A stretch of 64,000 nucleotides of DNA from the NCBI GenBank assembly GCA_946699065.1, contig CAMPDV010000083.1, forward strand, positions 558,001 to 622,000, read 5' to 3'. Of the stretch, positions 8,026-39,119 are shown piece by piece. Position 1 is the first letter of the stretch, and every line of letters begins with the position of its first letter. The DNA is from Loxodes magnus (Eukaryota; Ciliophora; Karyorelictea; Loxodida; Loxodidae). The translations under genes were made by a program, and so were the position numbers. Under the pieces are notes generated by a model that was not told the origin of the DNA, did not search any database, and saw only the letters and a list, made by a program, of their open reading frames with translations.

Positions 8026-8274
8026 CCTATATATATGAGGACACTTCGTTATCTTGTTTTGTTCCAGCTCTTCTTACTCTATTTACTCCTAGCTGGAATA
8101 TCGTAAAGGTGGAATAGTATCGAGCCATTGATCGTAATTTGGTTAATTAGGCACCTTTTCATTTAGTGGGGGTAGATAAGCGAAGTTTGGTCAGCTATTA
8201 GAAAAGTGTAGTTTTTTTTCTCCGTATAGTAGGCTAGGTAAGCCAAATAGAATGGTTGAAGTGAGATCCTCCAT
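8026..8274 (-). pseudogene. Truncated Cys/His-motif gene at the left array edge
   Basis: First 83 codons of the array's minus-strand gene, from its ATG at 8274 to KCPHIYR. Beyond the array edge the reading runs into unrelated flank, so three of the four Cys-rich blocks are lost. A product, if any, would lack the zinc-binding region. Confidence 0.8.
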
Positions 8275-8404
8275 ATATAATGAAAAAATGTAAAATATGT
8301 AAATAAACGGAAAATAAGAAGAAAATTAAAAAGATAAAAGAATCGATAATCTTAGGCAATAAATTTGTAAAAGTATTATTAATTTCTTGTATAGAAAAGA
8401 AAAT

Positions 8405-9493
8405 ATGATACTAAAATATAAATTAAGCTTATTGCTACTTTTTATATGCAAAATCTTAGGTCTAAATGTTATTTTTCAGACTGATTATTATTAGGAGTTA
8501 GTATTCCTTATGTTTCTATTTTATGTGTATTATGCGACTATGTGTTTGTCTTATAAAAGGCGTAGGAGTCATCAATTGAAGTAGCTAGCTAAACTTAAGT
8601 AAGAAGACTTTTAATTTTTTTATATTATGGTTACTTAATAAAAGGACTATTTGAAGTCTTTAAGAAATAACTTAAGAAAAAAAGCCTTAGTGCTTTGATT
8701 TTTTATCCTAATAAATAGGAACATATATGAAGGTATAGAAGTAATAACATTTTTTTAAGTATCTCTGTATATAAATAAATTTATTGATGATAAAAGATTT
8801 GATTAGGTTGGTTAATTTCATAGTTTGATAGTAACTTTTGTTTTAGAGCTTTATAGACTTTAAACAGAATTTAAAATTAAACTCTATAGATAAGTTTGGT
8901 AAACACTATAAATATAAGTGTGTAATAATAAAGATAATTAACTAATTTCTAACTATATATAATAAAGCTCTAGAATATTATAGACACTTAAAAGTCTATC
9001 TAGCAGCTTATAAGATTAGTACTATAAAAAGTTAAAGGGAACAAATCAAAAAGCTCCTATCAATATTTTAAGTATCTATTACACACTCTATTGATGAAGG
9101 ATAGAAGACTTTACAACAAGTATTTTGAAGATATATATGTATAGAGTTTAACATTCTAAATTTATCAAATTACCTAAGCAGTAAAATACAAGTTAGAACG
9201 TTAAAGATATTTAGTGATATACATTAATATTCCATGTGTTAGAAGATAGAAAACTATGTCAAACATTTATAGGAAAATACTTAGGTCTTCTAAAGAAGTT
9301 TATTTAGACATTTAGCTAAGAAAATCCTCATATAGTTTACATGATATAATTATCAAAAGTTAATAGCCTTTAAAATAGCATACCATAATATATACTTTAA
9401 AAAAGAGGAATAACTTAATTCTAAATTGTTTACTTTCAGTATATTTAATTTTCTTATATAGGAAGCTTTTTTTGTCTTTTATACCCCCTGTGA
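8405..9493 (+). CDS. Array membrane-protein gene, unit 1
   Basis: Full-length copy in the leftmost unit; spacer allele G. See 9995-11083 for the family description. Confidence 0.5.
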
Positions 9494-9864
9494 TAGCACT
9501 TCAGACATAGTCCTTTAGCATACATAATGCTATCCTAATGAATACACTTTGTGGCCTTCTTTGGCCTTGCTTTGGAGTGATAACAGTTATTACACATTTA
9601 CTTCGCATAATGTTTCCTATATATATGAGGACACTTCGTTATCTTGTTTTGTTCCAGCTCTTCTTACTCTATTTACTCCTAGCTGGAATATCGTAAAGGT
9701 GGAATAGTATCGAGCCATTGATCGTAATTTGGTTAATTAGGCACCTTTTCATTTAGTGGGGGTAGATAAGCGAAGTTTGGTCAGCTATTAGAAAAGTGTA
9801 GTTTTTTTTCTCCGTATAGTAGGCTAGGTAAGCCAAATAGAATGGTTGAAGTGAGATCCTCCAT
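9436..9864 (-). CDS. Duplicated Cys/His-motif protein, copy 1 (representative)
   Basis: 142 residues, no intron. Positions 1-74 are an acidic/Gln-rich N-terminus (MEDLTSTILFGLPSLLYGEK ... EQIEQEELEQNK). Positions 75-130 carry a repeated motif: C78-P-H80, Y86-A-K, C91-N-N-C94-Y-H96, then C107-I-H109, Y115-A-K-G, C120-L-K-C123-Y-H125. The tail is basic (RGYKRQKK). From memory, paired C-x-H/YAKG/C-x2-C-Y-H blocks recur in ciliate proteins and probably bind zinc; the function is not known to me. W28 is encoded by TGA. Stop taken as TGA at 9436-9438; a TAA lies three codons earlier (9445-9447). The gene starts in unit 2 and ends in unit 1, so it crosses the unit boundary and is intact only within the array. 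Its 3' end converges on the unit 1 membrane-protein gene. Confidence 0.85.
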
Positions 9865-9994
9865 ATATAATGAAAAAATGTAAAATATTTAAATAAACGG
9901 AAAATAAGAAGAAAATTAAAAAGATAAAAGAATCGATAATCTTAGGCAATAAATTTGTAAAAGTATTATTAATTTCTTGTATAGAAAAGAAAAT
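9865..9994. promoter_or_regulatory. 130-bp divergent spacer between the two cassette genes (representative)
   Basis: Purine-rich, very AT-rich spacer between the minus-strand ATG (9864) and the plus-strand ATG (9995). It must contain the 5' untranslated regions and start sites of both genes, so it is inferred to be a bidirectional promoter. The segregating G/T site lies here at 9889. The same spacer occurs at unit offsets 249-378 in every unit. Confidence 0.55.
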
Positions 9995-11083
9995 ATGATA
10001 CTAAAATATAAATTAAGCTTATTGCTACTTTTTATATGCAAAATCTTAGGTCTAAATGTTATTTTTCAGACTGATTATTATTAGGAGTTAGTATTCCTTA
10101 TGTTTCTATTTTATGTGTATTATGCGACTATGTGTTTGTCTTATAAAAGGCGTAGGAGTCATCAATTGAAGTAGCTAGCTAAACTTAAGTAAGAAGACTT
10201 TTAATTTTTTTATATTATGGTTACTTAATAAAAGGACTATTTGAAGTCTTTAAGAAATAACTTAAGAAAAAAAGCCTTAGTGCTTTGATTTTTTATCCTA
10301 ATAAATAGGAACATATATGAAGGTATAGAAGTAATAACATTTTTTTAAGTATCTCTGTATATAAATAAATTTATTGATGATAAAAGATTTGATTAGGTTG
10401 GTTAATTTCATAGTTTGATAGTAACTTTTGTTTTAGAGCTTTATAGACTTTAAACAGAATTTAAAATTAAACTCTATAGATAAGTTTGGTAAACACTATA
10501 AATATAAGTGTGTAATAATAAAGATAATTAACTAATTTCTAACTATATATAATAAAGCTCTAGAATATTATAGACACTTAAAAGTCTATCTAGCAGCTTA
10601 TAAGATTAGTACTATAAAAAGTTAAAGGGAACAAATCAAAAAGCTCCTATCAATATTTTAAGTATCTATTACACACTCTATTGATGAAGGATAGAAGACT
10701 TTACAACAAGTATTTTGAAGATATATATGTATAGAGTTTAACATTCTAAATTTATCAAATTACCTAAGCAGTAAAATACAAGTTAGAACGTTAAAGATAT
10801 TTAGTGATATACATTAATATTCCATGTGTTAGAAGATAGAAAACTATGTCAAACATTTATAGGAAAATACTTAGGTCTTCTAAAGAAGTTTATTTAGACA
10901 TTTAGCTAAGAAAATCCTCATATAGTTTACATGATATAATTATCAAAAGTTAATAGCCTTTAAAATAGCATACCATAATATATACTTTAAAAAAGAGGAA
11001 TAACTTAATTCTAAATTGTTTACTTTCAGTATATTTAATTTTCTTATATAGGAAGCTTTTTTTGTCTTTTATACCCCCTGTGA
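9995..11083 (+). CDS. Putative membrane protein of the cassette, unit 2 (representative)
   Basis: About 362 residues to a TGA at 11081-11083, or 337 to a TAA at 11006-11008. The start MILKYKLSLLLLFICKIL is signal-anchor-like. A second hydrophobic stretch follows (ELVFLMFLFYVYYATMCL), then a basic patch SYKRRRSHQLKQLAKLK, a third hydrophobic stretch (LVLWFFILI), and a long Gln/Leu/Ser-rich region with helical character (SSRILQTLKSLSSSLQDQYY). I recognise no domain. The plus strand is favoured by its purine excess and by the good ATG, but the opposite strand is also open and readable, so coding is likely rather than certain. If TGA is the stop, the 3' end overlaps the convergent Cys/His gene by 58 bp; if TAA, the two stops are nearly adjacent. 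Confidence 0.5.
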
Positions 11084-11454
11084 TAGCACTTCAGACATAG
11101 TCCTTTAGCATACATAATGCTATCCTAATGAATACACTTTGTGGCCTTCTTTGGCCTTGCTTTGGAGTGATAACAGTTATTACACATTTACTTCGCATAA
11201 TGTTTCCTATATATATGAGGACACTTCGTTATCTTGTTTTGTTCCAGCTCTTCTTACTCTATTTACTCCTAGCTGGAATATCGTAAAGGTGGAATAGTAT
11301 CGAGCCATTGATCGTAATTTGGTTAATTAGGCACCTTTTCATTTAGTGGGGGTAGATAAGCGAAGTTTGGTCAGCTATTAGAAAAGTGTAGTTTTTTTTC
11401 TCCGTATAGTAGGCTAGGTAAGCCAAATAGAATGGTTGAAGTGAGATCCTCCAT
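11026..11454 (-). CDS. Duplicated Cys/His-motif protein, copy 2
   Basis: Intact copy, starts in unit 3; spacer allele G. Confidence 0.8.
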
Positions 11455-11584
11455 ATATAATGAAAAAATGTAAAATATGTAAATAAACGGAAAATAAGAA
11501 GAAAATTAAAAAGATAAAAGAATCGATAATCTTAGGCAATAAATTTGTAAAAGTATTATTAATTTCTTGTATAGAAAAGAAAAT

Positions 11585-12673
11585 ATGATACTAAAATATA
11601 AATTAAGCTTATTGCTACTTTTTATATGCAAAATCTTAGGTCTAAATGTTATTTTTCAGACTGATTATTATTAGGAGTTAGTATTCCTTATGTTTCTATT
11701 TTATGTGTATTATGCGACTATGTGTTTGTCTTATAAAAGGCGTAGGAGTCATCAATTGAAGTAGCTAGCTAAACTTAAGTAAGAAGACTTTTAATTTTTT
11801 TATATTATGGTTACTTAATAAAAGGACTATTTGAAGTCTTTAAGAAATAACTTAAGAAAAAAAGCCTTAGTGCTTTGATTTTTTATCCTAATAAATAGGA
11901 ACATATATGAAGGTATAGAAGTAATAACATTTTTTTAAGTATCTCTGTATATAAATAAATTTATTGATGATAAAAGATTTGATTAGGTTGGTTAATTTCA
12001 TAGTTTGATAGTAACTTTTGTTTTAGAGCTTTATAGACTTTAAACAGAATTTAAAATTAAACTCTATAGATAAGTTTGGTAAACACTATAAATATAAGTG
12101 TGTAATAATAAAGATAATTAACTAATTTCTAACTATATATAATAAAGCTCTAGAATATTATAGACACTTAAAAGTCTATCTAGCAGCTTATAAGATTAGT
12201 ACTATAAAAAGTTAAAGGGAACAAATCAAAAAGCTCCTATCAATATTTTAAGTATCTATTACACACTCTATTGATGAAGGATAGAAGACTTTACAACAAG
12301 TATTTTGAAGATATATATGTATAGAGTTTAACATTCTAAATTTATCAAATTACCTAAGCAGTAAAATACAAGTTAGAACGTTAAAGATATTTAGTGATAT
12401 ACATTAATATTCCATGTGTTAGAAGATAGAAAACTATGTCAAACATTTATAGGAAAATACTTAGGTCTTCTAAAGAAGTTTATTTAGACATTTAGCTAAG
12501 AAAATCCTCATATAGTTTACATGATATAATTATCAAAAGTTAATAGCCTTTAAAATAGCATACCATAATATATACTTTAAAAAAGAGGAATAACTTAATT
12601 CTAAATTGTTTACTTTCAGTATATTTAATTTTCTTATATAGGAAGCTTTTTTTGTCTTTTATACCCCCTGTGA
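11585..12673 (+). CDS. Array membrane-protein gene, unit 3
   Basis: Intact copy; spacer allele G. Confidence 0.5.
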
Positions 12674-13044
12674 TAGCACTTCAGACATAGTCCTTTAGCA
12701 TACATAATGCTATCCTAATGAATACACTTTGTGGCCTTCTTTGGCCTTGCTTTGGAGTGATAACAGTTATTACACATTTACTTCGCATAATGTTTCCTAT
12801 ATATATGAGGACACTTCGTTATCTTGTTTTGTTCCAGCTCTTCTTACTCTATTTACTCCTAGCTGGAATATCGTAAAGGTGGAATAGTATCGAGCCATTG
12901 ATCGTAATTTGGTTAATTAGGCACCTTTTCATTTAGTGGGGGTAGATAAGCGAAGTTTGGTCAGCTATTAGAAAAGTGTAGTTTTTTTTCTCCGTATAGT
13001 AGGCTAGGTAAGCCAAATAGAATGGTTGAAGTGAGATCCTCCAT
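12616..13044 (-). CDS. Duplicated Cys/His-motif protein, copy 3
   Basis: Intact copy, starts in unit 4; spacer allele G. Confidence 0.8.
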
Positions 13045-13174
13045 ATATAATGAAAAAATGTAAAATATGTAAATAAACGGAAAATAAGAAGAAAATTAAA
13101 AAGATAAAAGAATCGATAATCTTAGGCAATAAATTTGTAAAAGTATTATTAATTTCTTGTATAGAAAAGAAAAT

Positions 13175-14263
13175 ATGATACTAAAATATAAATTAAGCTT
13201 ATTGCTACTTTTTATATGCAAAATCTTAGGTCTAAATGTTATTTTTCAGACTGATTATTATTAGGAGTTAGTATTCCTTATGTTTCTATTTTATGTGTAT
13301 TATGCGACTATGTGTTTGTCTTATAAAAGGCGTAGGAGTCATCAATTGAAGTAGCTAGCTAAACTTAAGTAAGAAGACTTTTAATTTTTTTATATTATGG
13401 TTACTTAATAAAAGGACTATTTGAAGTCTTTAAGAAATAACTTAAGAAAAAAAGCCTTAGTGCTTTGATTTTTTATCCTAATAAATAGGAACATATATGA
13501 AGGTATAGAAGTAATAACATTTTTTTAAGTATCTCTGTATATAAATAAATTTATTGATGATAAAAGATTTGATTAGGTTGGTTAATTTCATAGTTTGATA
13601 GTAACTTTTGTTTTAGAGCTTTATAGACTTTAAACAGAATTTAAAATTAAACTCTATAGATAAGTTTGGTAAACACTATAAATATAAGTGTGTAATAATA
13701 AAGATAATTAACTAATTTCTAACTATATATAATAAAGCTCTAGAATATTATAGACACTTAAAAGTCTATCTAGCAGCTTATAAGATTAGTACTATAAAAA
13801 GTTAAAGGGAACAAATCAAAAAGCTCCTATCAATATTTTAAGTATCTATTACACACTCTATTGATGAAGGATAGAAGACTTTACAACAAGTATTTTGAAG
13901 ATATATATGTATAGAGTTTAACATTCTAAATTTATCAAATTACCTAAGCAGTAAAATACAAGTTAGAACGTTAAAGATATTTAGTGATATACATTAATAT
14001 TCCATGTGTTAGAAGATAGAAAACTATGTCAAACATTTATAGGAAAATACTTAGGTCTTCTAAAGAAGTTTATTTAGACATTTAGCTAAGAAAATCCTCA
14101 TATAGTTTACATGATATAATTATCAAAAGTTAATAGCCTTTAAAATAGCATACCATAATATATACTTTAAAAAAGAGGAATAACTTAATTCTAAATTGTT
14201 TACTTTCAGTATATTTAATTTTCTTATATAGGAAGCTTTTTTTGTCTTTTATACCCCCTGTGA
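13175..14263 (+). CDS. Array membrane-protein gene, unit 4
   Basis: Intact copy; spacer allele G. Confidence 0.5.
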
Positions 14264-14634
14264 TAGCACTTCAGACATAGTCCTTTAGCATACATAATGC
14301 TATCCTAATGAATACACTTTGTGGCCTTCTTTGGCCTTGCTTTGGAGTGATAACAGTTATTACACATTTACTTCGCATAATGTTTCCTATATATATGAGG
14401 ACACTTCGTTATCTTGTTTTGTTCCAGCTCTTCTTACTCTATTTACTCCTAGCTGGAATATCGTAAAGGTGGAATAGTATCGAGCCATTGATCGTAATTT
14501 GGTTAATTAGGCACCTTTTCATTTAGTGGGGGTAGATAAGCGAAGTTTGGTCAGCTATTAGAAAAGTGTAGTTTTTTTTCTCCGTATAGTAGGCTAGGTA
14601 AGCCAAATAGAATGGTTGAAGTGAGATCCTCCAT
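14206..14634 (-). CDS. Duplicated Cys/His-motif protein, copy 4
   Basis: Intact copy, starts in unit 5; spacer allele T. Confidence 0.8.
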
Positions 14635-14764
14635 ATATAATGAAAAAATGTAAAATATTTAAATAAACGGAAAATAAGAAGAAAATTAAAAAGATAAAAG
14701 AATCGATAATCTTAGGCAATAAATTTGTAAAAGTATTATTAATTTCTTGTATAGAAAAGAAAAT

Positions 14765-15853
14765 ATGATACTAAAATATAAATTAAGCTTATTGCTACTT
14801 TTTATATGCAAAATCTTAGGTCTAAATGTTATTTTTCAGACTGATTATTATTAGGAGTTAGTATTCCTTATGTTTCTATTTTATGTGTATTATGCGACTA
14901 TGTGTTTGTCTTATAAAAGGCGTAGGAGTCATCAATTGAAGTAGCTAGCTAAACTTAAGTAAGAAGACTTTTAATTTTTTTATATTATGGTTACTTAATA
15001 AAAGGACTATTTGAAGTCTTTAAGAAATAACTTAAGAAAAAAAGCCTTAGTGCTTTGATTTTTTATCCTAATAAATAGGAACATATATGAAGGTATAGAA
15101 GTAATAACATTTTTTTAAGTATCTCTGTATATAAATAAATTTATTGATGATAAAAGATTTGATTAGGTTGGTTAATTTCATAGTTTGATAGTAACTTTTG
15201 TTTTAGAGCTTTATAGACTTTAAACAGAATTTAAAATTAAACTCTATAGATAAGTTTGGTAAACACTATAAATATAAGTGTGTAATAATAAAGATAATTA
15301 ACTAATTTCTAACTATATATAATAAAGCTCTAGAATATTATAGACACTTAAAAGTCTATCTAGCAGCTTATAAGATTAGTACTATAAAAAGTTAAAGGGA
15401 ACAAATCAAAAAGCTCCTATCAATATTTTAAGTATCTATTACACACTCTATTGATGAAGGATAGAAGACTTTACAACAAGTATTTTGAAGATATATATGT
15501 ATAGAGTTTAACATTCTAAATTTATCAAATTACCTAAGCAGTAAAATACAAGTTAGAACGTTAAAGATATTTAGTGATATACATTAATATTCCATGTGTT
15601 AGAAGATAGAAAACTATGTCAAACATTTATAGGAAAATACTTAGGTCTTCTAAAGAAGTTTATTTAGACATTTAGCTAAGAAAATCCTCATATAGTTTAC
15701 ATGATATAATTATCAAAAGTTAATAGCCTTTAAAATAGCATACCATAATATATACTTTAAAAAAGAGGAATAACTTAATTCTAAATTGTTTACTTTCAGT
15801 ATATTTAATTTTCTTATATAGGAAGCTTTTTTTGTCTTTTATACCCCCTGTGA
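14765..15853 (+). CDS. Array membrane-protein gene, unit 5
   Basis: Intact copy; spacer allele T. Confidence 0.5.
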
Positions 15854-16224: not shown

Positions 16225-16354
16225 ATATAATGAAAAAATGTAAAATATTTAAATAAACGGAAAATAAGAAGAAAATTAAAAAGATAAAAGAATCGATAAT
16301 CTTAGGCAATAAATTTGTAAAAGTATTATTAATTTCTTGTATAGAAAAGAAAAT

Positions 16355-19033: not shown

Positions 19034-19406
19034 TAGCACTTCAGACATAGTCCTTTAGCATACATAATGCTATCCTAATGAAATACACTTTGTGGCCTTC
19101 TTTGGCCTTGCTTTGGAGTGATAACAGTTATTACACATTTACTTCGCATAATGTTTTCCTATATATATGAGGACACTTCGTTATCTTGTTTTGTTCCAGC
19201 TCTTCTTACTCTATTTACTCCTAGCTGGAATATCGTAAAGGTGGAATAGTATCGAGCCATTGATCGTAATTTGGTTAATTAGGCACCTTTTCATTTAGTG
19301 GGGGTAGATAAGCGAAGTTTGGTCAGCTATTAGAAAAGTGTAGTTTTTTTTCTCCGTATAGTAGGCTAGGTAAGCCAAATAGAATGGTTGAAGTGAGATC
19401 CTCCAT
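18976..19406 (-). CDS. Duplicated Cys/His-motif protein, copy 7 (frame broken)
   Basis: Starts in unit 8 (spacer allele T). It is 431 nt long instead of 429: one extra base in a short T run near 19154 and one in an A run near 19081. Read literally, the frame is lost just after CPHIYR, destroying the Cys/His region. Both changes are homopolymer length differences, so sequencing or assembly error is as likely as a real lesion. Confidence 0.7.
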
Positions 19407-19537
19407 ATATAATGAAAAAATGTAAAATATTTAAATAAACGGAAAATAAGAAGAAAATTAAAAAGATAAAAGAATCGATAATCTTAGGCAATAAATTTGT
19501 AAAAAGTATTATTAATTTCTTGTATAGAAAAGAAAAT

Positions 19538-20626
19538 ATGATACTAAAATATAAATTAAGCTTATTGCTACTTTTTATATGCAAAATCTTAGGTCTAAAT
19601 GTTATTTTTCAGACTGATTATTATTAGGAGTTAGTATTCCTTATGTTTCTATTTTATGTGTATTATGCGACTATGTGTTTGTCTTATAAAAGGCGTAGGA
19701 GTCATCAATTGAAGTAGCTAGCTAAACTTAAGTAAGAAGACTTTTAATTTTTTTATATTATGGTTACTTAATAAAAGGACTATTTGAAGTCTTTAAGAAA
19801 TAACTTAAGAAAAAAGCCTTAGTGCTTTGATTTTTTATCCTAATAAATAGGAACATATATGAAGGTATAGAAGTAATAACATTTTTTTAAGTATCTCTGT
19901 ATATAAATAAATTTATTGATGATAAAAGATTTGATTAGGTTGGTTAATTTCATAGTTTGATAGTAACTTTTGTTTTAGAGCTTTATAGACTTTAAACAGA
20001 ATTTAAAATTAAACTCTATAGATAAGTTTGGTAAACACTATAAATATAAGTGTGTAATAATAAAGATAATTAACTAATTTCTAACTATATATAATAAAGC
20101 TCTAGAATATTATAGACACTTAAAAGTCTATCTAGCAGCTTATAAGATTAGTACTATAAAAAGTTAAAGGGAACAAATCAAAAAGCTCCTATCAATATTT
20201 TAAGTATCTATTACACACTCTATTGATGAAGGATAGAAGACTTTACAACAAGTATTTTGAAGATATATATGTATAGAGTTTAACATTCTAAATTTATCAA
20301 ATTACCTAAGCAGTAAAATACAAGTTAGAACGTTAAAGATATTTAGTGATATACATTAATATTCCATGTGTTAGAAGATAGAAAACTATGTCAAACATTT
20401 ATAGGAAAAATACTTAGGTCTTCTAAAGAAGTTTATTTAGACATTTAGCTAAGAAAATCCTCATATAGTTTACATGATATAATTATCAAAAGTTAATAGC
20501 CTTTAAAATAGCATACCATAATATATACTTTAAAAAAGAGGAATAACTTAATTCTAAATTGTTTACTTTCAGTATATTTAATTTTCTTATATAGGAAGCT
20601 TTTTTTGTCTTTTATACCCCCTGTGA
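19538..20626 (+). CDS. Array membrane-protein gene, unit 8 (two homopolymer indels)
   Basis: Spacer allele T. There is one base fewer in the A run near 19810 and one extra in the A run near 20406, so the middle of the protein is out of frame if taken literally and the frame returns near the C-terminus. An extra A in the spacer near 19501 lies before the ATG. Confidence 0.45.
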
Positions 20627-20998
20627 TAGCACTTCAGACATAGTCCTTTAGCATACATAATGCTATCCTAATGAATACACTTTGTGGCCTTCTTTGGCCT
20701 TGCTTTGGAGTGATAACAGTTATTACACATTTACTTCGCATAATGTTTCCTATATATATGAGGACACTTCGTTATCTTGTTTTGTTCCAGCTCTTCTTAC
20801 TCTATTTACTCCTAGCTGGAATATCGTAAAGGTGGAATAGTATCGAGCCATTGATCGTAATTTGGTTAATTAGGCACCTTTTCATTTAGTGGGGGTAGAT
20901 AAGCGAAGTTTGGTCAGCTATTAGAAAAAGTGTAGTTTTTTTTCTCCGTATAGTAGGCTAGGTAAGCCAAATAGAATGGTTGAAGTGAGATCCTCCAT
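20569..20998 (-). CDS. Duplicated Cys/His-motif protein, copy 8 (frame broken)
   Basis: Starts in unit 9 (spacer allele G). It is 430 nt, with one extra base in the A run near 20926 that falls at the GEKKLHFSNS segment. Read literally, the Cys/His region is out of frame. Confidence 0.7.
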
Positions 20999-21128
20999 AT
21001 ATAATGAAAAAATGTAAAATATGTAAATAAACGGAAAATAAGAAGAAAATTAAAAAGATAAAAGAATCGATAATCTTAGGCAATAAATTTGTAAAAGTAT
21101 TATTAATTTCTTGTATAGAAAAGAAAAT

Positions 21129-22217
21129 ATGATACTAAAATATAAATTAAGCTTATTGCTACTTTTTATATGCAAAATCTTAGGTCTAAATGTTATTTTT
21201 CAGACTGATTATTATTAGGAGTTAGTATTCCTTATGTTTCTATTTTATGTGTATTATGCGACTATGTGTTTGTCTTATAAAAGGCGTAGGAGTCATCAAT
21301 TGAAGTAGCTAGCTAAACTTAAGTAAGAAGACTTTTAATTTTTTTATATTATGGTTACTTAATAAAAGGACTATTTGAAGTCTTTAAGAAATAACTTAAG
21401 AAAAAAAGCCTTAGTGCTTTGATTTTTTATCCTAATAAATAGGAACATATATGAAGGTATAGAAGTAATAACATTTTTTTAAGTATCTCTGTATATAAAT
21501 AAATTTATTGATGATAAAAGATTTGATTAGGTTGGTTAATTTCATAGTTTGATAGTAACTTTTGTTTTAGAGCTTTATAGACTTTAAACAGAATTTAAAA
21601 TTAAACTCTATAGATAAGTTTGGTAAACACTATAAATATAAGTGTGTAATAATAAAGATAATTAACTAATTTCTAACTATATATAATAAAGCTCTAGAAT
21701 ATTATAGACACTTAAAAGTCTATCTAGCAGCTTATAAGATTAGTACTATAAAAAGTTAAAGGGAACAAATCAAAAAGCTCCTATCAATATTTTAAGTATC
21801 TATTACACACTCTATTGATGAAGGATAGAAGACTTTACAACAAGTATTTTGAAGATATATATGTATAGAGTTTAACATTCTAAATTTATCAAATTACCTA
21901 AGCAGTAAAATACAAGTTAGAACGTTAAAGATATTTAGTGATATACATTAATATTCCATGTGTTAGAAGATAGAAAACTATGTCAAACATTTATAGGAAA
22001 ATACTTAGGTCTTCTAAAGAAGTTTATTTAGACATTTAGCTAAGAAAATCCTCATATAGTTTACATGATATAATTATCAAAAGTTAATAGCCTTTAAAAT
22101 AGCATACCATAATATATACTTTAAAAAAGAGGAATAACTTAATTCTAAATTGTTTACTTTCAGTATATTTAATTTTCTTATATAGGAAGCTTTTTTTGTC
22201 TTTTATACCCCCTGTGA
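21129..22217 (+). CDS. Array membrane-protein gene, unit 9
   Basis: Intact copy; spacer allele G. Confidence 0.5.
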
Positions 22218-22588
22218 TAGCACTTCAGACATAGTCCTTTAGCATACATAATGCTATCCTAATGAATACACTTTGTGGCCTTCTTTGGCCTTGCTTTGGA
22301 GTGATAACAGTTATTACACATTTACTTCGCATAATGTTTCCTATATATATGAGGACACTTCGTTATCTTGTTTTGTTCCAGCTCTTCTTACTCTATTTAC
22401 TCCTAGCTGGAATATCGTAAAGGTGGAATAGTATCGAGCCATTGATCGTAATTTGGTTAATTAGGCACCTTTTCATTTAGTGGGGGTAGATAAGCGAAGT
22501 TTGGTCAGCTATTAGAAAAGTGTAGTTTTTTTTCTCCGTATAGTAGGCTAGGTAAGCCAAATAGAATGGTTGAAGTGAGATCCTCCAT
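22160..22588 (-). CDS. Duplicated Cys/His-motif protein, copy 9
   Basis: Intact copy, starts in unit 10; spacer allele T. Confidence 0.8.
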
Positions 22589-22718
22589 ATATAATGAAAA
22601 AATGTAAAATATTTAAATAAACGGAAAATAAGAAGAAAATTAAAAAGATAAAAGAATCGATAATCTTAGGCAATAAATTTGTAAAAGTATTATTAATTTC
22701 TTGTATAGAAAAGAAAAT

Positions 22719-23807
22719 ATGATACTAAAATATAAATTAAGCTTATTGCTACTTTTTATATGCAAAATCTTAGGTCTAAATGTTATTTTTCAGACTGATT
22801 ATTATTAGGAGTTAGTATTCCTTATGTTTCTATTTTATGTGTATTATGCGACTATGTGTTTGTCTTATAAAAGGCGTAGGAGTCATCAATTGAAGTAGCT
22901 AGCTAAACTTAAGTAAGAAGACTTTTAATTTTTTTATATTATGGTTACTTAATAAAAGGACTATTTGAAGTCTTTAAGAAATAACTTAAGAAAAAAAGCC
23001 TTAGTGCTTTGATTTTTTATCCTAATAAATAGGAACATATATGAAGGTATAGAAGTAATAACATTTTTTTAAGTATCTCTGTATATAAATAAATTTATTG
23101 ATGATAAAAGATTTGATTAGGTTGGTTAATTTCATAGTTTGATAGTAACTTTTGTTTTAGAGCTTTATAGACTTTAAACAGAATTTAAAATTAAACTCTA
23201 TAGATAAGTTTGGTAAACACTATAAATATAAGTGTGTAATAATAAAGATAATTAACTAATTTCTAACTATATATAATAAAGCTCTAGAATATTATAGACA
23301 CTTAAAAGTCTATCTAGCAGCTTATAAGATTAGTACTATAAAAAGTTAAAGGGAACAAATCAAAAAGCTCCTATCAATATTTTAAGTATCTATTACACAC
23401 TCTATTGATGAAGGATAGAAGACTTTACAACAAGTATTTTGAAGATATATATGTATAGAGTTTAACATTCTAAATTTATCAAATTACCTAAGCAGTAAAA
23501 TACAAGTTAGAACGTTAAAGATATTTAGTGATATACATTAATATTCCATGTGTTAGAAGATAGAAAACTATGTCAAACATTTATAGGAAAATACTTAGGT
23601 CTTCTAAAGAAGTTTATTTAGACATTTAGCTAAGAAAATCCTCATATAGTTTACATGATATAATTATCAAAAGTTAATAGCCTTTAAAATAGCATACCAT
23701 AATATATACTTTAAAAAAGAGGAATAACTTAATTCTAAATTGTTTACTTTCAGTATATTTAATTTTCTTATATAGGAAGCTTTTTTTGTCTTTTATACCC
23801 CCTGTGA
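22719..23807 (+). CDS. Array membrane-protein gene, unit 10
   Basis: Intact copy; spacer allele T. Confidence 0.5.
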
Positions 23808-24178
23808 TAGCACTTCAGACATAGTCCTTTAGCATACATAATGCTATCCTAATGAATACACTTTGTGGCCTTCTTTGGCCTTGCTTTGGAGTGATAACAG
23901 TTATTACACATTTACTTCGCATAATGTTTCCTATATATATGAGGACACTTCGTTATCTTGTTTTGTTCCAGCTCTTCTTACTCTATTTACTCCTAGCTGG
24001 AATATCGTAAAGGTGGAATAGTATCGAGCCATTGATCGTAATTTGGTTAATTAGGCACCTTTTCATTTAGTGGGGGTAGATAAGCGAAGTTTGGTCAGCT
24101 ATTAGAAAAGTGTAGTTTTTTTTCTCCGTATAGTAGGCTAGGTAAGCCAAATAGAATGGTTGAAGTGAGATCCTCCAT
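23750..24178 (-). CDS. Duplicated Cys/His-motif protein, copy 10
   Basis: Intact copy, starts in unit 11; spacer allele T. Confidence 0.8.
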
Positions 24179-24308
24179 ATATAATGAAAAAATGTAAAAT
24201 ATTTAAATAAACGGAAAATAAGAAGAAAATTAAAAAGATAAAAGAATCGATAATCTTAGGCAATAAATTTGTAAAAGTATTATTAATTTCTTGTATAGAA
24301 AAGAAAAT

Positions 24309-25397
24309 ATGATACTAAAATATAAATTAAGCTTATTGCTACTTTTTATATGCAAAATCTTAGGTCTAAATGTTATTTTTCAGACTGATTATTATTAGGA
24401 GTTAGTATTCCTTATGTTTCTATTTTATGTGTATTATGCGACTATGTGTTTGTCTTATAAAAGGCGTAGGAGTCATCAATTGAAGTAGCTAGCTAAACTT
24501 AAGTAAGAAGACTTTTAATTTTTTTATATTATGGTTACTTAATAAAAGGACTATTTGAAGTCTTTAAGAAATAACTTAAGAAAAAAAGCCTTAGTGCTTT
24601 GATTTTTTATCCTAATAAATAGGAACATATATGAAGGTATAGAAGTAATAACATTTTTTTAAGTATCTCTGTATATAAATAAATTTATTGATGATAAAAG
24701 ATTTGATTAGGTTGGTTAATTTCATAGTTTGATAGTAACTTTTGTTTTAGAGCTTTATAGACTTTAAACAGAATTTAAAATTAAACTCTATAGATAAGTT
24801 TGGTAAACACTATAAATATAAGTGTGTAATAATAAAGATAATTAACTAATTTCTAACTATATATAATAAAGCTCTAGAATATTATAGACACTTAAAAGTC
24901 TATCTAGCAGCTTATAAGATTAGTACTATAAAAAGTTAAAGGGAACAAATCAAAAAGCTCCTATCAATATTTTAAGTATCTATTACACACTCTATTGATG
25001 AAGGATAGAAGACTTTACAACAAGTATTTTGAAGATATATATGTATAGAGTTTAACATTCTAAATTTATCAAATTACCTAAGCAGTAAAATACAAGTTAG
25101 AACGTTAAAGATATTTAGTGATATACATTAATATTCCATGTGTTAGAAGATAGAAAACTATGTCAAACATTTATAGGAAAATACTTAGGTCTTCTAAAGA
25201 AGTTTATTTAGACATTTAGCTAAGAAAATCCTCATATAGTTTACATGATATAATTATCAAAAGTTAATAGCCTTTAAAATAGCATACCATAATATATACT
25301 TTAAAAAAGAGGAATAACTTAATTCTAAATTGTTTACTTTCAGTATATTTAATTTTCTTATATAGGAAGCTTTTTTTGTCTTTTATACCCCCTGTGA
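24309..25397 (+). CDS. Array membrane-protein gene, unit 11
   Basis: Intact copy; spacer allele T. Confidence 0.5.
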
Positions 25398-25768
25398 TAG
25401 CACTTCAGACATAGTCCTTTAGCATACATAATGCTATCCTAATGAATACACTTTGTGGCCTTCTTTGGCCTTGCTTTGGAGTGATAACAGTTATTACACA
25501 TTTACTTCGCATAATGTTTCCTATATATATGAGGACACTTCGTTATCTTGTTTTGTTCCAGCTCTTCTTACTCTATTTACTCCTAGCTGGAATATCGTAA
25601 AGGTGGAATAGTATCGAGCCATTGATCGTAATTTGGTTAATTAGGCACCTTTTCATTTAGTGGGGGTAGATAAGCGAAGTTTGGTCAGCTATTAGAAAAG
25701 TGTAGTTTTTTTTCTCCGTATAGTAGGCTAGGTAAGCCAAATAGAATGGTTGAAGTGAGATCCTCCAT
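25340..25768 (-). CDS. Duplicated Cys/His-motif protein, copy 11
   Basis: Intact copy, starts in unit 12; spacer allele G. Confidence 0.8.
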
Positions 25769-25898
25769 ATATAATGAAAAAATGTAAAATATGTAAATAA
25801 ACGGAAAATAAGAAGAAAATTAAAAAGATAAAAGAATCGATAATCTTAGGCAATAAATTTGTAAAAGTATTATTAATTTCTTGTATAGAAAAGAAAAT

Positions 25899-26988
25899 AT
25901 GATACTAAAATATAAATTAAGCTTATTGCTACTTTTTATATGCAAAATCTTAGGTCTAAATGTTATTTTTCAGACTGATTATTATTAGGAGTTAGTATTC
26001 CTTATGTTTCTATTTTATGTGTATTATGCGACTATGTGTTTGTCTTATAAAAGGCGTAGGAGTCATCAATTGAAGTAGCTAGCTAAACTTAAGTAAGAAG
26101 ACTTTTAATTTTTTTATATTATGGTTACTTAATAAAAGGACTATTTGAAGTCTTTAAGAAATAACTTAAGAAAAAAAGCCTTAGTGCTTTGATTTTTTTA
26201 TCCTAATAAATAGGAACATATATGAAGGTATAGAAGTAATAACATTTTTTTAAGTATCTCTGTATATAAATAAATTTATTGATGATAAAAGATTTGATTA
26301 GGTTGGTTAATTTCATAGTTTGATAGTAACTTTTGTTTTAGAGCTTTATAGACTTTAAACAGAATTTAAAATTAAACTCTATAGATAAGTTTGGTAAACA
26401 CTATAAATATAAGTGTGTAATAATAAAGATAATTAACTAATTTCTAACTATATATAATAAAGCTCTAGAATATTATAGACACTTAAAAGTCTATCTAGCA
26501 GCTTATAAGATTAGTACTATAAAAAGTTAAAGGGAACAAATCAAAAAGCTCCTATCAATATTTTAAGTATCTATTACACACTCTATTGATGAAGGATAGA
26601 AGACTTTACAACAAGTATTTTGAAGATATATATGTATAGAGTTTAACATTCTAAATTTATCAAATTACCTAAGCAGTAAAATACAAGTTAGAACGTTAAA
26701 GATATTTAGTGATATACATTAATATTCCATGTGTTAGAAGATAGAAAACTATGTCAAACATTTATAGGAAAATACTTAGGTCTTCTAAAGAAGTTTATTT
26801 AGACATTTAGCTAAGAAAATCCTCATATAGTTTACATGATATAATTATCAAAAGTTAATAGCCTTTAAAATAGCATACCATAATATATACTTTAAAAAAG
26901 AGGAATAACTTAATTCTAAATTGTTTACTTTCAGTATATTTAATTTTCTTATATAGGAAGCTTTTTTTGTCTTTTATACCCCCTGTGA
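25899..26988 (+). CDS. Array membrane-protein gene, unit 12 (frame broken)
   Basis: Spacer allele G. One extra base in the T run near 26193 shifts the frame at about residue 100 if taken literally. This is a homopolymer change, so error is a real possibility. Confidence 0.45.
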
Positions 26989-32129: not shown

Positions 32130-32259
32130 ATATAATGAAAAAATGTAAAATATTTAAATAAACGGAAAATAAGAAGAAAATTAAAAAGATAAAAGAATCG
32201 ATAATCTTAGGCAATAAATTTGTAAAAGTATTATTAATTTCTTGTATAGAAAAGAAAAT

Positions 32260-33348
32260 ATGATACTAAAATATAAATTAAGCTTATTGCTACTTTTTAT
32301 ATGCAAAATCTTAGGTCTAAATGTTATTTTTCAGACTGATTATTATTAGGAGTTAGTATTCCTTATGTTTCTATTTTATGTGTATTATGCGACTATGTGT
32401 TTGTCTTATAAAAGGCGTAGGAGTCATCAATTGAAGTAGCTAGCTAAACTTAAGTAAGAAGACTTTTAATTTTTTTATATTATGGTTACTTAATAAAAGG
32501 ACTATTTGAAGTCTTTAAGAAATAACTTAAGAAAAAAAGCCTTAGTGCTTTGATTTTTTATCCTAATAAATAGGAACATATATGAAGGTATAGAAGTAAT
32601 AACATTTTTTTAAGTATCTCTGTATATAAATAAATTTATTGATGATAAAAGATTTGATTAGGTTGGTTAATTTCATAGTTTGATAGTAACTTTTGTTTTA
32701 GAGCTTTATAGACTTTAAACAGAATTTAAAATTAAACTCTATAGATAAGTTTGGTAAACACTATAAATATAAGTGTGTAATAATAAAGATAATTAACTAA
32801 TTTCTAACTATATATAATAAAGCTCTAGAATATTATAGACACTTAAAAGTCTATCTAGCAGCTTATAAGATTAGTACTATAAAAAGTTAAAGGGAACAAA
32901 TCAAAAAGCTCCTATCAATATTTTAAGTATCTATTACACACTCTATTGATGAAGGATAGAAGACTTTACAACAAGTATTTTGAAGATATATATGTATAGA
33001 GTTTAACATTCTAAATTTATCAAATTACCTAAGCAGTAAAATACAAGTTAGAACGTTAAAGATATTTAGTGATATACATTAATATTCCATGTGTTAGAAG
33101 ATAGAAAACTATGTCAAACATTTATAGGAAAATACTTAGGTCTTCTAAAGAAGTTTATTTAGACATTTAGCTAAGAAAATCCTCATATAGTTTACATGAT
33201 ATAATTATCAAAAGTTAATAGCCTTTAAAATAGCATACCATAATATATACTTTAAAAAAGAGGAATAACTTAATTCTAAATTGTTTACTTTCAGTATATT
33301 TAATTTTCTTATATAGGAAGCTTTTTTTGTCTTTTATACCCCCTGTGA
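32260..33348 (+). CDS. Array membrane-protein gene, unit 16
   Basis: Intact copy; spacer allele T. Confidence 0.5.
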
Positions 33349-33719
33349 TAGCACTTCAGACATAGTCCTTTAGCATACATAATGCTATCCTAATGAATAC
33401 ACTTTGTGGCCTTCTTTGGCCTTGCTTTGGAGTGATAACAGTTATTACACATTTACTTCGCATAATGTTTCCTATATATATGAGGACACTTCGTTATCTT
33501 GTTTTGTTCCAGCTCTTCTTACTCTATTTACTCCTAGCTGGAATATCGTAAAGGTGGAATAGTATCGAGCCATTGATCGTAATTTGGTTAATTAGGCACC
33601 TTTTCATTTAGTGGGGGTAGATAAGCGAAGTTTGGTCAGCTATTAGAAAAGTGTAGTTTTTTTTCTCCGTATAGTAGGCTAGGTAAGCCAAATAGAATGG
33701 TTGAAGTGAGATCCTCCAT
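33291..33719 (-). CDS. Duplicated Cys/His-motif protein, copy 16
   Basis: Intact copy, starts in unit 17; spacer allele T. Confidence 0.8.
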
Positions 33720-33849
33720 ATATAATGAAAAAATGTAAAATATTTAAATAAACGGAAAATAAGAAGAAAATTAAAAAGATAAAAGAATCGATAATCTTAG
33801 GCAATAAATTTGTAAAAGTATTATTAATTTCTTGTATAGAAAAGAAAAT

Positions 33850-34938
33850 ATGATACTAAAATATAAATTAAGCTTATTGCTACTTTTTATATGCAAAATC
33901 TTAGGTCTAAATGTTATTTTTCAGACTGATTATTATTAGGAGTTAGTATTCCTTATGTTTCTATTTTATGTGTATTATGCGACTATGTGTTTGTCTTATA
34001 AAAGGCGTAGGAGTCATCAATTGAAGTAGCTAGCTAAACTTAAGTAAGAAGACTTTTAATTTTTTTATATTATGGTTACTTAATAAAAGGACTATTTGAA
34101 GTCTTTAAGAAATAACTTAAGAAAAAAAGCCTTAGTGCTTTGATTTTTTATCCTAATAAATAGGAACATATATGAAGGTATAGAAGTAATAACATTTTTT
34201 TAAGTATCTCTGTATATAAATAAATTTATTGATGATAAAAGATTTGATTAGGTTGGTTAATTTCATAGTTTGATAGTAACTTTTGTTTTAGAGCTTTATA
34301 GACTTTAAACAGAATTTAAAATTAAACTCTATAGATAAGTTTGGTAAACACTATAAATATAAGTGTGTAATAATAAAGATAATTAACTAATTTCTAACTA
34401 TATATAATAAAGCTCTAGAATATTATAGACACTTAAAAGTCTATCTAGCAGCTTATAAGATTAGTACTATAAAAAGTTAAAGGGAACAAATCAAAAAGCT
34501 CCTATCAATATTTTAAGTATCTATTACACACTCTATTGATGAAGGATAGAAGACTTTACAACAAGTATTTTGAAGATATATATGTATAGAGTTTAACATT
34601 CTAAATTTATCAAATTACCTAAGCAGTAAAATACAAGTTAGAACGTTAAAGATATTTAGTGATATACATTAATATTCCATGTGTTAGAAGATAGAAAACT
34701 ATGTCAAACATTTATAGGAAAATACTTAGGTCTTCTAAAGAAGTTTATTTAGACATTTAGCTAAGAAAATCCTCATATAGTTTACATGATATAATTATCA
34801 AAAGTTAATAGCCTTTAAAATAGCATACCATAATATATACTTTAAAAAAGAGGAATAACTTAATTCTAAATTGTTTACTTTCAGTATATTTAATTTTCTT
34901 ATATAGGAAGCTTTTTTTGTCTTTTATACCCCCTGTGA
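33850..34938 (+). CDS. Array membrane-protein gene, unit 17
   Basis: Intact copy; spacer allele T. Confidence 0.5.
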
Positions 34939-35309
34939 TAGCACTTCAGACATAGTCCTTTAGCATACATAATGCTATCCTAATGAATACACTTTGTGGC
35001 CTTCTTTGGCCTTGCTTTGGAGTGATAACAGTTATTACACATTTACTTCGCATAATGTTTCCTATATATATGAGGACACTTCGTTATCTTGTTTTGTTCC
35101 AGCTCTTCTTACTCTATTTACTCCTAGCTGGAATATCGTAAAGGTGGAATAGTATCGAGCCATTGATCGTAATTTGGTTAATTAGGCACCTTTTCATTTA
35201 GTGGGGGTAGATAAGCGAAGTTTGGTCAGCTATTAGAAAAGTGTAGTTTTTTTTCTCCGTATAGTAGGCTAGGTAAGCCAAATAGAATGGTTGAAGTGAG
35301 ATCCTCCAT
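34881..35309 (-). CDS. Duplicated Cys/His-motif protein, copy 17
   Basis: Intact copy, starts in unit 18; spacer allele T. Confidence 0.8.
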
Positions 35310-35439
35310 ATATAATGAAAAAATGTAAAATATTTAAATAAACGGAAAATAAGAAGAAAATTAAAAAGATAAAAGAATCGATAATCTTAGGCAATAAATT
35401 TGTAAAAGTATTATTAATTTCTTGTATAGAAAAGAAAAT

Positions 35440-36528
35440 ATGATACTAAAATATAAATTAAGCTTATTGCTACTTTTTATATGCAAAATCTTAGGTCTAA
35501 ATGTTATTTTTCAGACTGATTATTATTAGGAGTTAGTATTCCTTATGTTTCTATTTTATGTGTATTATGCGACTATGTGTTTGTCTTATAAAAGGCGTAG
35601 GAGTCATCAATTGAAGTAGCTAGCTAAACTTAAGTAAGAAGACTTTTAATTTTTTTATATTATGGTTACTTAATAAAAGGACTATTTGAAGTCTTTAAGA
35701 AATAACTTAAGAAAAAAAGCCTTAGTGCTTTGATTTTTTATCCTAATAAATAGGAACATATATGAAGGTATAGAAGTAATAACATTTTTTTAAGTATCTC
35801 TGTATATAAATAAATTTATTGATGATAAAAGATTTGATTAGGTTGGTTAATTTCATAGTTTGATAGTAACTTTTGTTTTAGAGCTTTATAGACTTTAAAC
35901 AGAATTTAAAATTAAACTCTATAGATAAGTTTGGTAAACACTATAAATATAAGTGTGTAATAATAAAGATAATTAACTAATTTCTAACTATATATAATAA
36001 AGCTCTAGAATATTATAGACACTTAAAAGTCTATCTAGCAGCTTATAAGATTAGTACTATAAAAAGTTAAAGGGAACAAATCAAAAAGCTCCTATCAATA
36101 TTTTAAGTATCTATTACACACTCTATTGATGAAGGATAGAAGACTTTACAACAAGTATTTTGAAGATATATATGTATAGAGTTTAACATTCTAAATTTAT
36201 CAAATTACCTAAGCAGTAAAATACAAGTTAGAACGTTAAAGATATTTAGTGATATACATTAATATTCCATGTGTTAGAAGATAGAAAACTATGTCAAACA
36301 TTTATAGGAAAATACTTAGGTCTTCTAAAGAAGTTTATTTAGACATTTAGCTAAGAAAATCCTCATATAGTTTACATGATATAATTATCAAAAGTTAATA
36401 GCCTTTAAAATAGCATACCATAATATATACTTTAAAAAAGAGGAATAACTTAATTCTAAATTGTTTACTTTCAGTATATTTAATTTTCTTATATAGGAAG
36501 CTTTTTTTGTCTTTTATACCCCCTGTGA
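35440..36528 (+). CDS. Array membrane-protein gene, unit 18
   Basis: Intact copy; spacer allele T. Confidence 0.5.
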
Positions 36529-36899
36529 TAGCACTTCAGACATAGTCCTTTAGCATACATAATGCTATCCTAATGAATACACTTTGTGGCCTTCTTTGGC
36601 CTTGCTTTGGAGTGATAACAGTTATTACACATTTACTTCGCATAATGTTTCCTATATATATGAGGACACTTCGTTATCTTGTTTTGTTCCAGCTCTTCTT
36701 ACTCTATTTACTCCTAGCTGGAATATCGTAAAGGTGGAATAGTATCGAGCCATTGATCGTAATTTGGTTAATTAGGCACCTTTTCATTTAGTGGGGGTAG
36801 ATAAGCGAAGTTTGGTCAGCTATTAGAAAAGTGTAGTTTTTTTTCTCCGTATAGTAGGCTAGGTAAGCCAAATAGAATGGTTGAAGTGAGATCCTCCAT
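36471..36899 (-). CDS. Duplicated Cys/His-motif protein, copy 18
   Basis: Intact copy, starts in unit 19; spacer allele G. Confidence 0.8.
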
Positions 36900-37029
36900 A
36901 TATAATGAAAAAATGTAAAATATGTAAATAAACGGAAAATAAGAAGAAAATTAAAAAGATAAAAGAATCGATAATCTTAGGCAATAAATTTGTAAAAGTA
37001 TTATTAATTTCTTGTATAGAAAAGAAAAT

Positions 37030-38118
37030 ATGATACTAAAATATAAATTAAGCTTATTGCTACTTTTTATATGCAAAATCTTAGGTCTAAATGTTATTTT
37101 TCAGACTGATTATTATTAGGAGTTAGTATTCCTTATGTTTCTATTTTATGTGTATTATGCGACTATGTGTTTGTCTTATAAAAGGCGTAGGAGTCATCAA
37201 TTGAAGTAGCTAGCTAAACTTAAGTAAGAAGACTTTTAATTTTTTTATATTATGGTTACTTAATAAAAGGACTATTTGAAGTCTTTAAGAAATAACTTAA
37301 GAAAAAAAGCCTTAGTGCTTTGATTTTTTATCCTAATAAATAGGAACATATATGAAGGTATAGAAGTAATAACATTTTTTTAAGTATCTCTGTATATAAA
37401 TAAATTTATTGATGATAAAAGATTTGATTAGGTTGGTTAATTTCATAGTTTGATAGTAACTTTTGTTTTAGAGCTTTATAGACTTTAAACAGAATTTAAA
37501 ATTAAACTCTATAGATAAGTTTGGTAAACACTATAAATATAAGTGTGTAATAATAAAGATAATTAACTAATTTCTAACTATATATAATAAAGCTCTAGAA
37601 TATTATAGACACTTAAAAGTCTATCTAGCAGCTTATAAGATTAGTACTATAAAAAGTTAAAGGGAACAAATCAAAAAGCTCCTATCAATATTTTAAGTAT
37701 CTATTACACACTCTATTGATGAAGGATAGAAGACTTTACAACAAGTATTTTGAAGATATATATGTATAGAGTTTAACATTCTAAATTTATCAAATTACCT
37801 AAGCAGTAAAATACAAGTTAGAACGTTAAAGATATTTAGTGATATACATTAATATTCCATGTGTTAGAAGATAGAAAACTATGTCAAACATTTATAGGAA
37901 AATACTTAGGTCTTCTAAAGAAGTTTATTTAGACATTTAGCTAAGAAAATCCTCATATAGTTTACATGATATAATTATCAAAAGTTAATAGCCTTTAAAA
38001 TAGCATACCATAATATATACTTTAAAAAAGAGGAATAACTTAATTCTAAATTGTTTACTTTCAGTATATTTAATTTTCTTATATAGGAAGCTTTTTTTGT
38101 CTTTTATACCCCCTGTGA
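37030..38118 (+). CDS. Array membrane-protein gene, unit 19
   Basis: Last full-length copy; spacer allele G. Confidence 0.5.
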
Positions 38119-38489
38119 TAGCACTTCAGACATAGTCCTTTAGCATACATAATGCTATCCTAATGAATACACTTTGTGGCCTTCTTTGGCCTTGCTTTGG
38201 AGTGATAACAGTTATTACACATTTACTTCGCATAATGTTTCCTATATATATGAGGACACTTCGTTATCTTGTTTTGTTCCAGCTCTTCTTACTCTATTTA
38301 CTCCTAGCTGGAATATCGTAAAGGTGGAATAGTATCGAGCCATTGATCGTAATTTGGTTAATTAGGCACCTTTTCATTTAGTGGGGGTAGATAAGCGAAG
38401 TTTGGTCAGCTATTAGAAAAGTGTAGTTTTTTTTCTCCGTATAGTAGGCTAGGTAAGCCAAATAGAATGGTTGAAGTGAGATCCTCCAT
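38061..38489 (-). CDS. Duplicated Cys/His-motif protein, copy 19
   Basis: Intact copy that starts in the partial unit 20; spacer allele G. Confidence 0.8.
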
Positions 38490-38619
38490 ATATAATGAAA
38501 AAATGTAAAATATGTAAATAAACGGAAAATAAGAAGAAAATTAAAAAGATAAAAGAATCGATAATCTTAGGCAATAAATTTGTAAAAGTATTATTAATTT
38601 CTTGTATAGAAAAGAAAAT

Positions 38620-39119
38620 ATGATACTAAAATATAAATTAAGCTTATTGCTACTTTTTATATGCAAAATCTTAGTATTTTTTCTATATATATCTTTTTCT
38701 TTGTTCAAGTACTCGATTAGATTTTATTATTTTTATATTTTTATCTTTTTTTTAATATATAGTTTTTTTAATATTTATATTGATTTATGATTTTTGTTAA
38801 CATTCTCATTAGACAAATCTGATATTTTTTTTAATGCTTTTTTTCAAGTAATTATTTATTACCTGATTCTAACTTATTCAGCAATTTGCTATTATATTTG
38901 AAAGTTTTTATATTTTTAATATGTTTTTTATGTTTTATCGTTTTTTTATTTATTTTTTTATTAGATACTGTGCTTTTTTTAATTCTTTTGTTCAACTTTA
39001 ATATTTATCTAAATTCGTTCATTTTTTTATTTTATAACCTAGTATTTATGTTTTTATCTTTTTCGTTTTTTTCAGTTTATTTGAATGTTCTTTATATTAT
39101 ATCAGGTACTTATTAGAGT
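38620..39119 (+). pseudogene. Truncated membrane-protein gene fused to a T-rich hydrophobic tract
   Basis: The first 18 codons of the cassette membrane protein (to FICKIL) run to the array edge at 38674 and continue in the same frame into flanking sequence. That flank is very T-rich on this strand and would encode an almost continuous run of Phe, Leu, Ile and Tyr in any frame. Two sub-frames (38602-38790 and 38886-39116) are open even in the standard code, which is expected from the lack of A. A real multi-pass membrane protein is possible, but base-composition artefact is the simpler reading. Confidence 0.3.

Follow-up and report, generated by a model that had tools for sequence, protein, structure and literature searches.

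The tandem array and its units

The window analysed here is a 64,000-nucleotide stretch of the Loxodes magnus contig CAMPDV010000083.1 (positions 558,001 to 622,000), and it contains a long tandem array of near-identical units, each of which appears to carry one small gene for a protein with Cys/His motifs. The main features of the array, in positions of the window, are as follows.

8026 to 38674, no strand assigned: the entire tandem array, made up of 19 full units and a partial one of 434 bp
9616 to 11205, no strand assigned: unit 2, 1590 bp, the reference unit
9889 (unit position 274), no strand assigned: the sole substitution site, T or G, 25 bp upstream of the Cys/His ATG
9436 to 9864, minus strand: first complete copy of the Cys/His gene, 142 amino acids and a TGA stop, with one in-frame TGA read as tryptophan
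8026 to 8274, minus strand: Cys/His gene of unit 1, truncated by the array's left edge after ...CPHIYR

When the unit's opening 25 bases were matched exactly, 20 unit starts appeared, from 8026 to 38241, with spacings of 1590 bp in 15 of the 19 intervals, 1591 bp in three and 1592 bp in one. Alignment of each unit to unit 2 placed the end of the final, 434-bp partial unit at 38674. The units lie head-to-tail in many copies, as the members of a tandem gene array do, and the array is plainly real in the sequence. Both the matching and the alignment confirm an earlier description made from the letters of the window (the sequence-only reading), which gave 19 full units and one partial unit, near-identical and of about 1,590 bp, at 8026 to 38674. 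The array is absent from the Tandem Repeats Finder (TRF) listing, in which the longest period is 500.

The first point to note is how little the units differ. When all 20 are aligned to unit 2, position 274 is G in nine and T in 11, and beyond this site the only differences are seven 1-bp indels, of which two are in unit 7, three in unit 8 and one each in units 9 and 12. The unit 2 sequence is matched exactly by nine of the 19 full units (unit 2 included), the other ten deviating at site 274 and/or by 1-bp indels. The mean pairwise substitution is 0.52 per unit, or 0.033% per base, an identity far beyond chance. This is ∼18 times less than the difference between the two haplotypes of L. magnus, for which Seah et al. 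(2024; PMC11441545) give a heterozygosity of 0.6%.

Spacer and gene are equally invariant across the units, and the variants are common to several units. Such uniformity, extending as it does to the apparent spacer, points to recency or exchange rather than to selection on the protein. Units with T and with G are interspersed (11 runs, against 10.9 expected on shuffling), which is the pattern left by unequal crossing-over or conversion. The sequence-only reading had seen in the array a recent expansion or continuing homogenisation, and the equal invariance of spacer and gene, together with the 18-fold shortfall relative to L. magnus heterozygosity, bears this out.

We therefore favour, with a probability of roughly 0.6, a recently amplified or homogenising tandem gene array with one 142-amino-acid Cys/His gene per unit. 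Each unit would comprise this small gene and some 1.1 kb consisting largely, if not entirely, of spacer; the array would have been amplified recently and/or would still be homogenising, with unequal crossing-over and gene conversion as the putative processes that expand it and keep it uniform. A benefit of dosage is possible, and is not needed to explain the array.

Two other identities were considered for the unit and rejected. For a structural RNA array, Rfam matched nothing in the window at the gathering score and nothing in the unit at E ≤ 1, and there was no tRNA. A transposon bounded by terminal inverted repeats was discounted because, of 114 inverted pairs in the unit, the 25 longest proved to be imperfect (71–94%) and AT-rich.

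The putative Cys/His gene and the rest of the unit

In units 2 to 20 the Cys/His gene begins with an ATG at unit position 249, crosses into the preceding unit and stops at a TGA at position 1411. Its open reading frame (ORF) of 429 bp, stop included, takes up 27% of the 1590-bp unit. The predicted protein contains two modules, CPH-x10-CNNCYH and CIH-x10-CLKCYH, whose self-similarity (ungapped BLOSUM62) scores 61 in the Cys/His frame; the next frames, which share the DNA-level likeness, score 44 and 33, and the maximum over six frames of 100 dinucleotide shuffles was 38. An identical open protein is found in 17 of the 19 complete copies, while in copies 8 and 9 the frame is shifted by indels of the middle of the array, a region that is suspect for the reasons given below. 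There is little divergence between units, so the intact copies say little.

Coding potential was scored with a codon model that was trained on 18 genes predicted in the flanks, leaving out each gene when it was itself scored, and that was calibrated against 60 coding scoring windows (here called segments), with a 5th percentile of 0.021, and against 40 non-coding segments, with a 95th percentile of −0.036. It supersedes an earlier codon-usage scan with fewer training genes, in which the frames were poorly separated. Over the Cys/His gene the best-frame scores were 0.193 (unit 1–240), 0.206 (1441–1680) and 0.176 (1521–1760). The Cys/His frame is the best of six at 1–240 (0.193) and, narrowly, at 1521–1760 (0.176, against 0.174 for another minus frame). 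A home-made gene model gained 27.0 in the Cys/His region, compared with 15.3 ± 4.9 in shuffles (maximum 23.9), with a different exon structure. The Cys/His region looks coding; the motif and some segments favour its frame, but other segments do not. A second minus frame, which overlaps the gene at unit 1411–1680 (for example 9436 to 9705) and outscores the Cys/His frame in one segment, has no recognised motif.

Several observations weigh against a working Cys/His gene. At unit 1441–1680 another minus frame beats the Cys/His frame (0.206 versus 0.122), at 81–320 a plus frame does so (0.190 versus 0.077), and at 1361–1600 the Cys/His frame scores −0.026. The gene model preferred introns that skip part of the Cys motifs; we did not adopt these because part of the motifs would be lost, which is a judgement. 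RNase T2, a true gene of the window, did no better than shuffles in the gene-model test (z 0.2), so the power of this test is limited. Some segments of true genes ranked low as well (RNase T2, 0.02; one Kelch segment, 0.01), and the classes carry a degree of circularity, the model having been trained on this window. Of 28 aligned codons, the two modules differ in 13 first, 12 second and 17 third positions, so that third positions are in slight excess at most. A TAA codon occurs at residues 137 and 140 of 142, shortly before the stop, where UAA is depleted in L. magnus (PMC11441545). Lastly, the protein has no relative in any of the collections searched, and hence there is no evidence of selection on it.

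These searches gave no match for the Cys/His protein in Pfam at E ≤ 1 (the domain alone gave DUF7685 as its best match, E 0.1), in PDB at E ≤ 5 or in NCBIfam at E ≤ 10. The best match in PHROGs was phrog_20467, 'HNH endonuclease', over two stretches and not significant (E 0.043); the best among 10 phage records had an E-value of 0.7, and the IMG/VR and GTDB genomes contained no relative. No significant profile match in Pfam, NCBIfam, PHROGs or PDB thus places the protein among the HNH endonucleases or zinc fingers. A literature text search with six variants of the Cys motif found none, and a 22-bp DNA pattern sought in IMG/VR led nowhere. Because the collections hold viruses, prokaryotes, solved structures and curated families, absence from them says little about other ciliates. 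CxH/CxxCY-like proteins presumably occur in other alveolates and among phage HNH proteins, which no search confirmed. AlphaFold2, run without an alignment, gave a useless model (mean pLDDT 48, pTM 0.19).

The CxH-x10-CxxC spacing, present twice, resembles that of small Cys/His modules such as zinc-knuckle and HNH-associated ones. Unlike the HNH-associated modules, the protein consists of two CxH/CxxC modules alone with no recognised catalytic part, and the E-value for phrog_20467 is non-significant. The Cys/His pattern and this HNH-endonuclease-like profile match suggest that the protein perhaps binds zinc and nucleic acid, and a role as a small nucleic-acid-binding protein can be proposed tentatively. 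Overall, the coding scores, the module duplication and the 17 identical copies lend moderate support to the Cys/His-motif gene of the sequence-only reading, putatively a working and expressed gene.

The same evidence bears on whether the array is instead a satellite that happens to carry a gene or a gene-like frame, having expanded by drift with the Cys/His gene as a passenger, silent or redundant. The equal invariance of spacer and gene, with nothing pointing to protein selection, would fit such a satellite, as would the fact that tandem repeat makes up one third or more of the L. magnus assemblies (PMC11441545). That 17 of 19 complete copies are intact, with both broken ones in the suspect middle, argues the other way, although with so little divergence intactness is a weak argument. 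We regard the satellite as rather unlikely, and retain the gene array as the preferred reading.

The remainder of the unit was examined with the same codon model, and its central part is

10096 to 10815 (unit 481–1200), no strand assigned: spacer core, scored non-coding, with seven segments under all 60 coding segments

Nine of the 20 segments round the unit fall below all 60 coding segments, namely the seven starting at 481 to 961 and those starting at 1201 and 1281. Best-frame scores in the spacer core run from −0.03 to −0.13, that of 481–720 (−0.034) lying slightly over the non-coding 95th percentile. The rest of unit 250–1410 is non-coding-like or ambiguous: 161–400, 401–640 and 1121–1360 are ambiguous, and 241–560 and 1041–1280 lie near the bottom of the coding range. 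The gene model gained 0.7 over unit 330–1400, against 2.1 ± 2.1 in 60 shuffles. Support as coding therefore extends to 429 of the unit's 1590 bp (about 27%), and ∼1.1 kb would be mostly or wholly spacer.

This differs from the sequence-only reading, which took the unit to be about 90% coding and to contain a putative membrane-protein gene divergent from the Cys/His gene, and to which the joint amplification suggested selection for dosage or a paired function. On such an account, the two genes would form a selected dosage cassette, co-amplified because both products are needed together. There are indeed long open frames on the plus strand, beginning near unit 263 or 389, as well as a 20-nucleotide GT..AG stretch of Loxodes intron size at unit 435–454. 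Some segments also score in the coding range (161–400, plus, 0.107; 401–640, minus, 0.067; 1121–1360, plus, 0.021), and a plus frame reaches 0.190 at 81–320. However, when TAA, TAG and TGA are all readable as sense, AT-rich DNA is expected to hold open frames hundreds of codons long, which are nearly free. The seven core segments below every coding segment and the lack of gene-model gain at 330–1400 (in a test of limited power) speak against a second gene, as do the best Pfam and NCBIfam matches of the plus-strand reading, which are far under the curated cut-offs; the candidate would moreover run across unit position 434, at which the array stops on its right side. Of the coding content claimed, support extends to the minus-strand Cys/His ORF alone. 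The membrane-protein gene has no support, and a divergent plus-strand partner is unsupported, the segments near unit 80–480 being ambiguous. We consider the two-gene cassette very unlikely.

The intron-like stretch at unit 435–454 (for example 10050 to 10069) has the form GT..TTTTCAG and begins exactly past the array end at 434, which may be coincidence.

Copy number, edges and origin of the array

The features relevant to the completeness and the boundaries of the array are the following.

19081 to 26193 (7.1 kb), no strand assigned: stretch with all seven indels, probably without uniquely anchored read cover
8027 to 8036, plus strand: CTATATATAT, at the left edge of the array, equal to unit positions 2–11
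38683 to 38692, plus strand: CTATATATAT, present just once in the flanks, 8 bp beyond the right edge
7863 to 8025, plus strand: GC-rich fragment (0.44) resembling an exon, which adjoins the left edge and reads on into the first bases of the array up to a TGA

The array ends on either side of the indel-bearing stretch are free of indels over 11,055 bp (left) and 12,481 bp (right). For seven random positions in the array, the probability of falling in so short a span is 0.0009, in a test picked after the pattern had been seen. This suggests that the ends were polished by flank-anchored reads of roughly 11–12 kb, whilst the middle kept draft errors. With all indels in the middle and clean, read-anchored ends, the middle would be unbridged, and the count of 19.3 copies is accordingly uncertain. 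The published L. magnus workflow, in which Falcon contigs from circular consensus sequencing (CCS) reads were polished with Racon using reads of mapping quality at least 20 (PMC11441545), would yield just such clean ends and an error-bearing middle.

On balance, we lean towards the view that the assembly is responsible for the copy number or for part of the array, and that the chromosome has more or fewer units. The confinement of the indels to the middle 7.1 kb is what polishing by uniquely mapped reads would leave, and the authors of the L. magnus assemblies, besides applying the mapping-quality filter, attribute differences in assembly size to the misassembly of repeats (PMC11441545). A caution is that the origin of the window in that workflow is presumed. 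It is also the case that many units are required in either event: the T/G strings of units 1–7 and 13–20 do not permit any overlap, so that full trust in both ends calls for at least 15 units, and eight tighter choices of the trusted ends give minima of 9 to 14 units. The long array is real, but 19.27 copies is the value of the assembly, and the true number is not fixed by it. The sequence-only reading had proposed counting copies in both germline and somatic nuclei. Since the germline and somatic genomes of Loxodes are reported as equivalent (PMC11441545), that contrast is less relevant.

The two edges of the array lie at different unit positions, 1 on the left and 434 on the right, and share the 10-bp CTATATATAT, a match with a chance of 0.0065, or 0.0015 with GC-matched windows. 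One explanation is that a preformed array, for instance a rolling-replicated circle, was inserted at a TA-rich site and left the 10-mer at both edges. The differing end positions and the cutting of copy 1 within its gene are consistent with this, as is the edge match. In L. magnus, insertions bounded by terminal direct repeats are commoner than chance, especially with TA motifs (PMC11441545). However, the left 10-mer recurs in every unit, its right-hand counterpart stands 8 bp beyond the array, and the edge comparison was chosen after the edges had been seen. The ends are accounted for just as well by an in-situ duplication joined at 434|435 and a subsequent loss on the left. Should the Cys/His gene be real, the join 1590|1 inside it must be ancestral, and the duplication join is best placed at 434|435; the right flank would then be original, and the left end would have been lost or rearranged. 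That the array was inserted ready-made we hold to be unlikely. The fragment at 7863 to 8025 is possibly the end of a real gene, or a gene broken at the left edge.

Flanking genes, known arrays and meaning

Outside the array, the following genes and domains were recognised.

39717 to 40738, plus strand: ArfGAP gene in the right flank, with two in-frame TGA codons; its end is from the home-made gene model
4368 to 5091, minus strand: cyclic-nucleotide phosphodiesterase (PDE) domain in the left flank; coordinates computed from matched residues
57820 to 58284, minus strand: RNase T2-like gene; extent from the home-made gene model
1072 to 1830 (minus strand), 6674 to 7261 (plus strand) and 52674 to 53638 (minus strand): ligand-gated ion channel and Kelch domains (Pfam), and a K+ channel-like gene

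The last of these resembles, as judged by eye, a K+ channel with a cyclic-nucleotide-binding part; the coordinates of the ion channel and Kelch domains were computed from matched residues. The flanking genes read TAA and TAG as glutamine and TGA as tryptophan (NCBI code 27, karyorelict), and one very short intron was also found. ArfGAP matches the Pfam family ArfGap with an E-value of 1.1e-32 when its two TGA codons are read as tryptophan and TAA/TAG as glutamine. The PDE domain is formed of two frames joined by a 19-nucleotide GT..AG intron, read by eye, and its one aligned TGA (1/1) falls on a conserved tryptophan of the best PDB match. Three of the four aligned TGA codons of the RNase T2-like gene fall on tryptophan, in the HGLWP-, WP- and HEW-like motifs of PDB matches. 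For the three genes combined, four of seven aligned in-frame TGA codons correspond to tryptophan in the best PDB match; against the tryptophan reading, both ArfGAP codons align with isoleucine. In L. magnus, TGA is likewise stop or tryptophan, and introns have a mean length of 19.3 bp (PMC11441545), so its genome has the same code and intron size as the window, which by these features most likely belongs to Loxodes or to a near karyorelict relation. The unit itself shows how a near-stopless code creates false genes.

Ribosomal RNA (rRNA), 5S and histone genes form homogenised tandem arrays that are kept uniform by unequal exchange. The array described here is like them in having gene and spacer head-to-tail, near-identical units and a spacer as uniform as the gene (for the ribosomal DNA of L. 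magnus, see PMC11441545). Unlike them, its gene encodes an unnamed Cys/His protein and not a known high-demand RNA or histone. Low-complexity tandem repeat accounts for 231 of 706 Mbp in the L. magnus macronuclear (MAC) assembly and 359 of 848 Mbp in the micronuclear (MIC) one, that is, 33% and 42%. The TRF setting of 2000 used there would admit the 1590-bp period of the array; neither the unit found here nor arrays of protein-coding units are described in the excerpted text, where gene predictions overlapping TRF regions are said to have been identified (Seah et al. 2024; PMC11441545).

As we read it, the array is a well-formed example of a homogenised tandem gene array, from a lineage whose wealth of tandem repeats was known before, and the gene that it would carry is a small, unnamed Cys/His one. 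It also indicates, on the technical side, that the clustering of indels in an assembled array can reveal where read bridging ended. Loxodes has large, repeat-rich genomes without extensive DNA elimination (PMC11441545). A bolder idea, to which we give a low probability, is that part of the masked Loxodes tandem repeat consists of arrays of intact, expressed small-protein genes. These would form a hidden amplified set, represented here by a Cys/His nucleic-acid-binding protein held at high dosage through germline arrays, which would possibly have moved preformed between TA-rich sites. If it is true that some Loxodes repeats are gene arrays, gene counts that exclude repeats would miss them, and the amplification of arrays in the germline could take the place of the somatic chromosome amplification of other ciliates.

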